Positions 10,409-15,153 of a stretch of 21,055 nucleotides of DNA are shown piece by piece. The first letter of the stretch is position 1. Each line of letters begins with the position of its first letter. Position numbers and translations under genes: made by a program. This stretch comes from a virus. The notes beneath the pieces were generated by a model, which had not been told where the DNA came from, searched no databases, and saw only the letters and a list, made by a program, of their open reading frames with translations. The stretch covers positions 1 to 21,055 of the IMG/VR virus record IMGVR_UViG_3300021131_000063; one strand, 5' to 3'.

Positions 10409-10454
10409 TTATAAAACATAGGGGTAAGCGGGTTTTTACTGTTTCACCGCCCTA

Positions 10455-10487
10455 GGGATGCCGAAGCAGAACAGTGTCAGGCATCCC
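10455..10487 (+). other. Stem-loop
   Basis: GGGATGCC (10455-10462) pairs perfectly with GGCATCCC (10480-10487) over a 17-nt loop. No T-run follows. A smaller hairpin, CTCACG-TTTTG-CGTGAG, follows at 10515-10531. Together they suggest a structured transcript ahead of the gene at 10647. Confidence 0.45.
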
Positions 10488-10646
10488 ACCCCCATTAGAC
10501 GATCTGGGTACAGGCTCACGTTTTGCGTGAGTCACGTCGCAATTCCAGACAGGGACCGCCATAACGTGAAGTACCCACCAAATTTCTCAAACAATTGGTG
10601 ATTTATGTGCGATAGGACGCATCTGGTTAAAAAACGGGAGAAGCAA

Positions 10647-13931: not shown

Positions 13932-14186
13932 ATGACCGGAATTTATACCGTCGTTAACGATAGCGACCTAATGGACGCACCCCATACCGTGTCTTTTTGC
14001 TACCGGAAACCCGCCGAAGAATATGTCCGCGAGTTGTTTAGGGTTTATTTGGAATATTCCAAAACTGACCCAACCGAACCGTTACCGGAACCCGAAACCT
14101 ACTACAACGGGGAAAAATACACGTTCGAGGGCGGATACTGCACCGAAACCGTCTTTTTAATCGAAACCGAATTACTGGGAGAGTAA
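13932..14186 (+). CDS. Small acidic protein, unknown function
   Basis: 84 aa, beginning MTGIYTVVNDSDLMDAPHTV, with many acidic residues and a Pro/Glu-rich middle (DPTEPLPEPETYYNGEKYTF). No membrane segment or known motif; two isolated Cys. AAAAGGAA lies about nine bases before the ATG at 13932. It is the first gene of a dense plus-strand array; the next gene begins four nt after its stop. I see no promoter of good quality in the 114-nt gap before it. Not recognised. Confidence 0.7.
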   Translation: MTGIYTVVNDSDLMDAPHTVSFCYRKPAEEYVRELFRVYLEYSKTDPTEPLPEPETYYNGEKYTFEGGYCTETVFLIETELLGE

Positions 14187-14190
14187 AACG

Positions 14191-14538
14191 ATGCTTTACA
14201 TTGTATCAAACGAAGACCTAAAAGAAACCGCCAATAATGCGGGGGAGAAAGAATGGTTTGCATATTTGGGGGACGCAGAAGAAGCCGCCAAACGCATTGC
14301 GAACGAAACAGGCATGCTGCAACACATCTATAGTTTTGTGCGGCACCATAGCATTATGCCCGAACCCGAAAGAACCTACCGCCTGTGCTTTAAAAAGATC
14401 GATGGTCATTATATGACCGTAAACGCTCATAACCTTGAGGAAGCGATTGAAAAGGGGAAAGACCGCCTGTCATCAACCGATTATGAATTCTATGACCATG
14501 TGGAACTCGCGTATCAGGAGACACCAGATGAAACGTGA
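14191..14538 (+). CDS. Small protein with C-terminal DpnD/PcfM-like pattern
   Basis: 115 aa. The N-terminal half (MLYIVSNEDLKETANNAGEK ... YLGDAEEAAKRIANETG) is helical. The C-terminal half (about residues 62-110: YRLCFKKIDGHYMTVNAHNL, then EEAIEKGKDRL and a Y/E-rich strand) has the strand-strand-helix-strand order of the small DpnD/PcfM-like proteins, in which a V-x-A-x-x-x-E-E-A-I motif is typical. Two later genes of this array share that pattern, so they may be paralogues. GGGAGA precedes the ATG by eight bases. The 3' end overlaps the next gene by 11 nt. Molecular role unknown. Confidence 0.7.
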   Translation: MLYIVSNEDLKETANNAGEKEWFAYLGDAEEAAKRIANETGMLQHIYSFVRHHSIMPEPERTYRLCFKKIDGHYMTVNAHNLEEAIEKGKDRLSSTDYEFYDHVELAYQETPDET

Positions 14539-14701
14539 TTACAAAGTGACCGTCACCAAGGTTTCAACCATTACCGTTACCGCTTATGATGAAGAGGACG
14601 CGATTGAGATTGCGTCCCAACTCCCCAATTCATTAACGGATTGGGAACACAAAACCGAATATGAGGCAGAAGAGGAATACGATTACGATGAAGAACCGTA
14701 A
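14528..14701 (+). CDS. Small DpnD/PcfM-like protein
   Basis: 57 aa from the ATG at 14528, which follows AGGAGA by six bases and lies within the end of the previous gene. The sequence MKRDYKVTVTKVSTITVTAY, then DEEDAIEIASQLP and an acidic tail (EYEAEEEYDYDEEP), is a compact version of the DpnD/PcfM-like strand-strand-helix-strand pattern. DpnD and PcfM themselves have no firm biochemical role. The 3' end overlaps the ArfA-like gene by 14 nt, so the three genes 14191-14897 are translationally linked. A longer open frame upstream, to 14435, lies inside the previous gene and is not used. Confidence 0.7.
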   Translation: MKRDYKVTVTKVSTITVTAYDEEDAIEIASQLPNSLTDWEHKTEYEAEEEYDYDEEP

Positions 14702-14897
14702 CCCAGTCGGGAAAGCATTACGCGATCCCGTATTCAGACAAAGGGTTGTGAAAGACAAAAAAGCGGAACACAACCGCCGACAATGCCGAACCCACAACCC
14801 CAAAACAGACTTCACAATGACAAAGAACAGAGGCGGGTCAAACCGCCTTTTTCATATAAAAAACAATACTTTAGTGTTGTTTTCCCGTCAAGGTTGA
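14688..14897 (+). CDS. arfA: ArfA-like alternative ribosome-rescue factor, with a terminator inside the ORF
   Basis: 69 aa as an open frame. Residues 9-23 read ALRDPVFRQRVVKDKK, almost the core of E. coli ArfA (D-P-L-F-R-Q-R-V-E-K-N-K-K). In ArfA this part and the basic tail bind the empty mRNA channel of a stalled ribosome and recruit RF2, so that peptides on non-stop mRNAs are released. A hairpin with a T-run (14831-14852) lies 43 nt before the stop, so transcripts ending there would code for about 55 residues without a stop codon. In E. coli the arfA mRNA is also made non-stop (by RNase III cleavage), which couples ArfA to failure of tmRNA. E. coli ArfA is 72 aa and its active truncated form about 55. 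The ATG at 14688 overlaps the previous gene; GAGGAA is 12 bases upstream. Short phage proteins with this N-P-V-x-K-A-L-R core are known to me as hypothetical proteins. Confidence 0.68.
   Translation: MKNRNPVGKALRDPVFRQRVVKDKKAEHNRRQCRTHNPKTDFTMTKNRGGSNRLFHIKNNTLVLFSRQG
14831..14852 (+). terminator. Intrinsic terminator inside the ArfA-like reading frame
   Basis: AGGCGG (14831-14836) pairs perfectly with CCGCCT (14843-14848) over a GTCAAA loop, followed by five T including the last paired one (14848-14852). In frame it encodes R-G-G-S-N-R-L-F. The stop codon of the ORF is 43 nt further on. Confidence 0.72.
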
Positions 14898-14920
14898 CAA
14901 CTATCAATTTTTGGTTTAAA
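14894..14920 (+). promoter_or_regulatory. Candidate promoter for the zinc-ribbon gene
   Basis: A perfect TTGACA (14894-14899) overlaps the TGA stop of the ArfA-like ORF. The best -10 candidates are TTTAAA after 15 bp or TAAAGA after 17 bp, both weak. It lies between the internal terminator and the gene at 14956, so a new transcript here would be logical. Confidence 0.4.
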
Positions 14921-14955
14921 GAACGGGTTAAGTGCTTGAAAAAGGATCACAAATT

Positions 14956-15153
14956 ATGAAAATGCGTTTCTATTATTGTCAAAGATGCGGTAGCACCCAT
15001 ATTTCCGCACCCACCACCACACAATGGGATCAGGCGGCTCAACAATGGGTTGCGGATGCACCGAACCTTGAGACGGGTTTCTGTGCGGTTTGTGAAGAAC
15101 CGACCCAGATCCGTGAGGGTTTGATTATGGAAAAAATCGAGGTTGAACGTTAA
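14956..15153 (+). CDS. Small zinc-ribbon protein
   Basis: 65 aa from ATG 14956, with AAAGGA nine bases upstream; a GTG at 14932 would add eight residues. Two Cys pairs, YCQRCGS (C8, C11) and FCAVCEE (C43, C46), are separated by about 31 residues. This is the classic C-x2-C ... C-x2-C zinc ribbon. The linker (TTTQWDQAAQQWVADAPNLE) includes two Trp. Such single-ribbon proteins are common in phages, where most have no assigned role; they may bind nucleic acid or a host protein. It begins just after the ArfA-like terminator and is followed 20 nt later by the coiled-coil protein gene. Confidence 0.75.
   Translation: MKMRFYYCQRCGSTHISAPTTTQWDQAAQQWVADAPNLETGFCAVCEEPTQIREGLIMEKIEVER

Follow-up and report, generated by a model that had tools for sequence, protein, structure and literature searches.

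The 3' end of a short operon in a virus genome raises the question of whether a phage may encode a ribosome-rescue factor of the ArfA type on a message that ends before its own stop codon. The locus lies in a window of 21,055 nt (the whole stretch of DNA analysed, positions 1 to 21,055 of IMG/VR record IMGVR_UViG_3300021131_000063), in which the initial annotation had described an ArfA-like gene with a terminator inside its open reading frame (ORF). This ORF is the final gene in a run of small plus-strand ORFs, and its translation is MKNRNPVGKALRDPVFRQRVVKDKKAEHNRRQCRTHNPKTDFTMTKNRGGSNRLFHIKNNTLVLFSRQG* (69 aa). Relatives of the locus were located through a neighbouring gp88-like gene. They comprise a sister contig (L002, 94%), three diverged but syntenic loci (L049, L050 and L051) and a contig, L093, that carries the same ORF and stops just short of the hairpin position. 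The genes and motifs of the region are as follows.

13932-14186 (+): small upstream ORF, apparently in one operon with the ArfA-like gene (ORF list; relatives in L049-L051)
14191-14538 (+): upstream ORF, apparently also of this operon (ORF list, protein search, relatives)
14528-14701 (+): upstream ORF, the last 14 nt of which overlap the ArfA-like ORF (ORF list, relatives)
14671-14676 (+): Shine-Dalgarno-like AGAGGA, 11 nt 5' of the ATG (read from the sequence)
14688-14897 (+): ArfA-like/DUF7230-like ORF of 69 codons (translation, Pfam and PDB matches, homologues in L002, L049, L050, L051 and L093)
14718-14762 (+): ArfA-like core LRDPVFRQRVVKDKK, residues 11-25 (Pfam ArfA match, PDB ArfA alignments)
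14956-15153 (+): downstream gene that opens the next unit; 65 aa, zinc-ribbon-like cysteines (identity to relatives 82-98%)

An NCBIfam profile search with the window protein gave no match, nor did a DNA-level search of annotated phages with the region, and the upstream 115-aa protein used as a query matched the sister contig alone. Elsewhere in the window, a CyVA-1 RNA (Rfam RF02965) was found at 10418-10495 (+), with 51.9 bits (gathering score 41.4).

Kinship of the protein with ArfA and DUF7230

The core had been described as very like ArfA. The relationship is real, as the top six PDB matches of the window protein are all ArfA (E = 0.03-0.04), but the likeness is short: the Pfam ArfA profile (PF03889) covers residues 11-25 at 17.1 bits (E = 0.004), which misses the cut-off of 25.5, and the KGKGSY motif is lacking. 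The best profile match is DUF7230 (PF23876), with 20.1 bits over residues 1-32 (E = 7e-4), also below its cut-off (27), and PHROG 20887 matches the window protein at E = 8e-6. The proteins of L049 and L051 gave no Pfam match.

Comparisons between profiles are stronger. The window clade aligns with a set of phage DUF7230-type proteins at E = 2e-13 (hhalign), and this set in turn aligns with cellular ArfA (E = 1e-5), the gap falling exactly over KGKGS. ArfA ranks first in PDB searches with the profile of either the window clade or the DUF7230 set (E = 0.004-0.005); the DUF7230 search lists nitrile hydratase next, at comparable E-values but without any stretch passing by itself. One annotated ArfA protein, from Pseudoalteromonas phage J2-1 (L110), exceeds both Pfam cut-offs (ArfA 41.3 bits, DUF7230 28.6 bits). 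Many phage ArfA proteins have a DUF7230-type N-terminus, RNPxAKxxRTPxY, fused to KGKGSY, and 80 loci kept from 200 stretches that matched phage ArfA in IMG/VR have the N-terminus RNPIAKEVRTPKYKxRVV joined to KGKGSY. On the basis of the double pass of L110, the profile-profile matches and these bridging sequences, we conclude from sequence comparison that DUF7230 is a branch of the ArfA family, with the window protein as a divergent member of that branch. The protein is not filed as ArfA itself because it lacks KGKGSY and scores under the Pfam cut-off.

The two functional elements of ArfA fare differently in the window protein. Its alignments follow the release-factor-facing core, A/L-x-D/S-P-L/V-F-R-x-R-V-x-K-x-K-K. 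The KGKGS[Y/F]xRK element of ArfA, which sits in the empty mRNA channel, is missing, its place being taken by AEHNRRQCRTH in the window and KAQNRRKCRSK in L049; many DUF7230 members keep Y-x-R-K at the position of the SYxRK of ArfA. A protein this short is expected to be ordered chiefly when bound to the ribosome. DUF7230-like proteins were also seen in Betaproteobacterial genomes (L037-L047; RNPVAKAVRTPAFRQRVVPDKR), where the tails are acidic instead of basic.

A hairpin and T-run inside the reading frame

The second part of the ORF and its 3' flank contain the following features.

14831-14852 (+): in-ORF intrinsic terminator, hairpin AGGCGG-GTCAAA-CCGCCT followed by T5 (folding, terminator scan, recoding, conservation)
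14860-14883 (+): second, A/T-rich hairpin 3' of the T-run (folding), with a mismatch in L002 and absent in L049-L051, hence not conserved
14894-14899 (+): TTGACA, resembling the -35 box of the following transcription unit and holding the ORF stop TGA at 14895-14897 (sequence)

The initially annotated hairpin and T-run are confirmed, both by folding and by a terminator scan. The stem GGCGG-GTCAAA-CCGCC occupies 14832-14847 and can be extended to 14829-14850; AGGCGG-GTCAAA-CCGCCT (14831-14848) provides six strong pairs, extendable by two, and TTTTT (14848-14852) lies directly 3' of the stem. The hairpin is in frame with no earlier stop, and 42 nt separate the end of the T-run from the TGA. The segment 14815-14900 folds at -26.6 kcal/mol, compared with -13.5 +/- 2.8 for shuffled sequences (z = -4.7; none of 200 as low). 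When the ORF was randomly recoded with synonymous codons, 79 of 4000 versions (~2%) encoding the same protein had an equally strong terminator somewhere in the second part. A consensus terminator scan skipped the plus-strand site because the stem absorbs the T-run, and a scan that trims the stem back to its last G-C pair does list it. The real product is predicted to comprise approximately residues 1-55, with the C-terminus ...GGSNRLF at the end of the transcript. Since the stop codon lies within TTGACA, it is probably outside the transcript that makes the ArfA-like gene. The stop in L049-L051 is a TAA just 3' of TTGACA, and TAAAAT is found 16 nt after TTGACA.

The arrangement is conserved. 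The ORF, hairpin and gene order are kept in the sister contig, and they are also kept, with no stop before the in-frame hairpin, in L049, L050 and L051, at 51-54% protein identity. An A-U stem pair of the window is G-C in these three loci, both sides having changed, and a G-U pair is A-U in L051, which also has one additional closing G-C; the T-run varies from 4 to 6 T across the clade. A formal test for covariation is powerless on these four distinct rows (137 of 500 shuffles score as high). Before the hairpin the two clades differ by a single indel, 3 nt long and in frame, and the first indel to break the frame, of 1 nt, lies directly 3' of the T-run, past which the C-terminal residues no longer align. 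These indels, together with the position of the stop at the next promoter, fit a coding frame that ends in practice at the terminator. From the core to the hairpin, all codon positions are conserved at the nucleotide level and substitutions do not favour frame 0, so that no codon-level selection on the tail peptide is seen; what this region retains is the hairpin and an open frame. Over the whole ORF, L049 and L050 differ in frame 0 by 4 synonymous and 0 non-synonymous changes.

In L049, L050 and L051 an extra terminator-like hairpin (GCCCC...GGGG followed by a T-run) is present just 5' of the ArfA-like ORF. The gene there lies between two terminators, so its expression would need read-through or a promoter of its own.

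Spread among phage and cellular genes

The initial annotation had asked whether homologous phage genes also carry a hairpin before the stop; they do in L002, L049, L050 and L051, but this is not general in the wider family. A strict in-ORF terminator was found in 7 of 90 unique phage ArfA/DUF7230-like ORFs, which fall into three lineages, namely the window clade, L026 and L180. It is absent from the other 83. An ordinary stop is therefore the rule among phage ArfA-like genes, and the fairly close relative L095 follows it, having no hairpin. Counted by lineage, in-ORF terminators occur in 3 of 86 phage ArfA lineages and in 10 of 902 other ORFs of the same contigs, an enrichment that is not significant (p = 0.10).

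Outside the window clade, L180 (1001-1147, +) encodes a phage ArfA with KGKGSY, and the stem of its terminator, GCCGCT-GCGA-AGCGGC followed by T6, ends 23 nt ahead of the last base of the stop codon; judged by this sequence, the gene is an independent candidate for a non-stop message. The DUF7230-type gene of L026 (1501-1674, +), also present in L027, has a strong in-ORF hairpin before the stop (GGGGCTAGG...TCCAGCCCC, T5). Gene gp10 of Citromicrobium phage RXM (L112, 787-811, +) has a stable stem that is followed by only TTT and ends 57 nt ahead of the last base of the stop. A hairpin in the last codons of the DUF7230 gene of Acinetobacter phage AbTZA1 (L028, 1489-1626, +), AAAGGACCTACGGGTCCTTT, reaches the stop codon, so that the predicted transcript would finish right at that stop.

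A scan of this type, applied to cellular arfA genes, found in-ORF hairpins in E. coli, where it recovered the published one, and in Proteus, Neisseria, P. aeruginosa and one further genome. The Vibrio and Aeromonas arfA genes examined have ordinary stops and no in-ORF terminator. Several candidates were set aside: the apparent in-ORF terminators of L064 and L070 are intergenic terminators covered by meaningless ORFs; the 'ArfA' of Pseudomonas phage Y3, an unverified record, is a P. aeruginosa host gene identical to the L117 sequence; and of three Salmonella matches (H58-H60), two belong to assembly records of Salmonella enterica and the third to an unannotated phage record of 1,521 bases.

Proposed mechanism and comparison with known systems

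The best reading, to which we give about an even chance, is that the operon-terminal gene encodes a divergent ArfA-type factor from a non-stop message gated by tmRNA. It is preferred because the ORF and hairpin are kept in diverged relatives, the frame-breaking indel lies past the T-run and the stop is located at the next promoter. Termination in vivo, control by tmRNA and rescue activity of the window gene are what we infer by analogy. Transcription of the short operon would end inside the coding frame and give an mRNA without a stop, encoding about 55 residues. While host tmRNA works, the product would be tagged for destruction and removal of the message would be helped. Once broken mRNA, arising from infection or host defence, exceeded the capacity of tmRNA, untagged protein would escape, bring the host release factor to ribosomes halted on cleaved messages and free them, including the ribosomes on its own message.

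Other explanations of the locus deserve attention. The gene may be related to ArfA yet independent of tmRNA, an operon terminator having strayed into the ORF's 3' end, where it is leaky or antiterminated and the 69-aa form does the work. This would suit the ordinary stops of most phage relatives, the modest T-run (4-6 T) and the second terminator-like hairpin 5' of the gene in L049-L051, which implies read-through or antitermination. A working C-terminus should be conserved, however, and the residues after the hairpin are not, with a 1-nt indel after the T-run and a stop in or beside the next promoter; we regard this account as unlikely. Nor do we see much probability, though some, in the view that DUF7230-type proteins share the ancestry of ArfA and have another role, such as halting or redirecting host translation through binding of the ribosome or a release factor. 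The absence of the mRNA-channel element KGKGSY from the window clade and DUF7230 members, and the acidic tails of Betaproteobacterial versions, point that way, but the conserved part is the core that faces the release factor, many DUF7230 members keep Y-x-R-K, and rescue factors are known to have terminators within their ORFs.

Chance or decay would imply a functionless gene that has lost its stop codon and reads into a terminator. The retention of the arrangement across 51-54% protein identity and the coding-like change in frame 0 over the whole ORF make this improbable, even if a chance terminator is seen in ~2% of synonymous recodings and the tail lacks codon-level selection. Least probable, and in our judgement only barely credible, is that the conserved stretch 14783-14870 encodes or overlaps something else, either a small peptide in the -1 frame (from the ATG at 14783) or a DNA or RNA element, the open frame 0 being incidental. 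Nucleotide identity is indeed highest across this stretch, the -1 frame (window 14783-14959, +) is also open and similar in L049-L051 (MPFQTPDKLHDDKEQGRVKPPF in L049), and the next gene of L095 begins at the corresponding spot in the same -1 frame. Against this, the window ATG at 14783 has no Shine-Dalgarno sequence, the length of the -1 frame differs greatly between the clades (58 versus 29 aa), and substitutions in it are no more synonymous than in frame 0. A -1 frameshift at the A-run past the core was also considered and rejected, as the stretch from the A-run to the ATG at 14783 is unconserved in that frame.

If the tmRNA-gated reading is correct, the factor would be yielded only when tmRNA is overloaded, and the response would be tied to the damage itself. 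Cleavage of mRNA is used by many anti-phage defences and toxins, and a rescue factor of its own could let a phage keep ribosomes free under such defences. A broader proposal, held more tentatively and at somewhat under an even chance, is that several phage lineages have their own tmRNA-gated switch, that the window clade, having lost KGKGSY, may sense the empty mRNA channel differently, and that the widespread phage family DUF7230 would represent a large, unrecognised and mostly ungated set of rescue factors. The link between DUF7230 and ArfA would give small hypothetical phage proteins a testable function.

Phage ArfA genes themselves have already been published, as gp10 of Citromicrobium phage vB_CbaS-RXM (PMC8953757) and as gp30 of pelagiphage HTVC027P, which is strongly expressed both early and late in infection (PMC12753301); the passages covered in these two papers describe no non-stop mRNA for either gene, and the one on RXM gp10 does not mention the hairpin (PMC8953757, PMC12753301). 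The suggestion that the arrangement is unreported in phages thus holds for the wiring: a literature search, in which subscription papers were thinly covered so that novelty is unproven, turned up no description of a phage arfA expressed from a non-stop mRNA. With the same thin coverage of subscription papers, DUF7230 was mentioned nowhere, and hence no link to ArfA was found. RXM gp10 and the IMG/VR phage ArfA proteins have an N-terminal motif of the RNPxAK.LRTPxFRxRVV type, as in the window, and the RXM gene resembles the window gene in having a hairpin and T3 before the stop. Unlike the window protein, these proteins keep KGKGSY or KGRGSY, and nearly all have ordinary stops. The DUF7230 phage proteins (PF23876; PHROG 20887 and 2701) have the segment RNPVAKALRxPxFRxRVVKDK in common with the window, but the members examined mostly have a normal stop after KYxRKxKxKK, with L026 as the exception.

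In E. coli arfA and B. subtilis brfA, a hairpin within the ORF leads to a non-stop message, the product of which is tagged by tmRNA until trans-translation fails (PMC8012679, PMC3989581, PMC6881298). Decay of the arfA message in E. coli also lowers the upstream gene zntR (PMC10107115), which suggests that the upstream ORFs of the window operon might be co-regulated. The window gene resembles bacterial ArfA (E. coli YhdL; PF03889) in its core, [L/V]FRQRVxKxKK, followed by a basic region, and in a hairpin within the ORF, with ~55 residues before the hairpin ends and a non-conserved tail up to the stop. It differs in the absence of KGKGSY, in a phage N-terminus of the RNPVxKAL type and in its score under the Pfam cut-off, and it has a short intrinsic terminator, whereas the stem of E. 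coli arfA is longer, imperfect and cut by RNase III. BrfA of Bacillus subtilis is an unrelated bacterial protein that is experimentally proven; the wiring is nevertheless alike, with an intrinsic terminator before the stop and a short product, and in BrfA this wiring has been proven to be under tmRNA control (PMC6881298).
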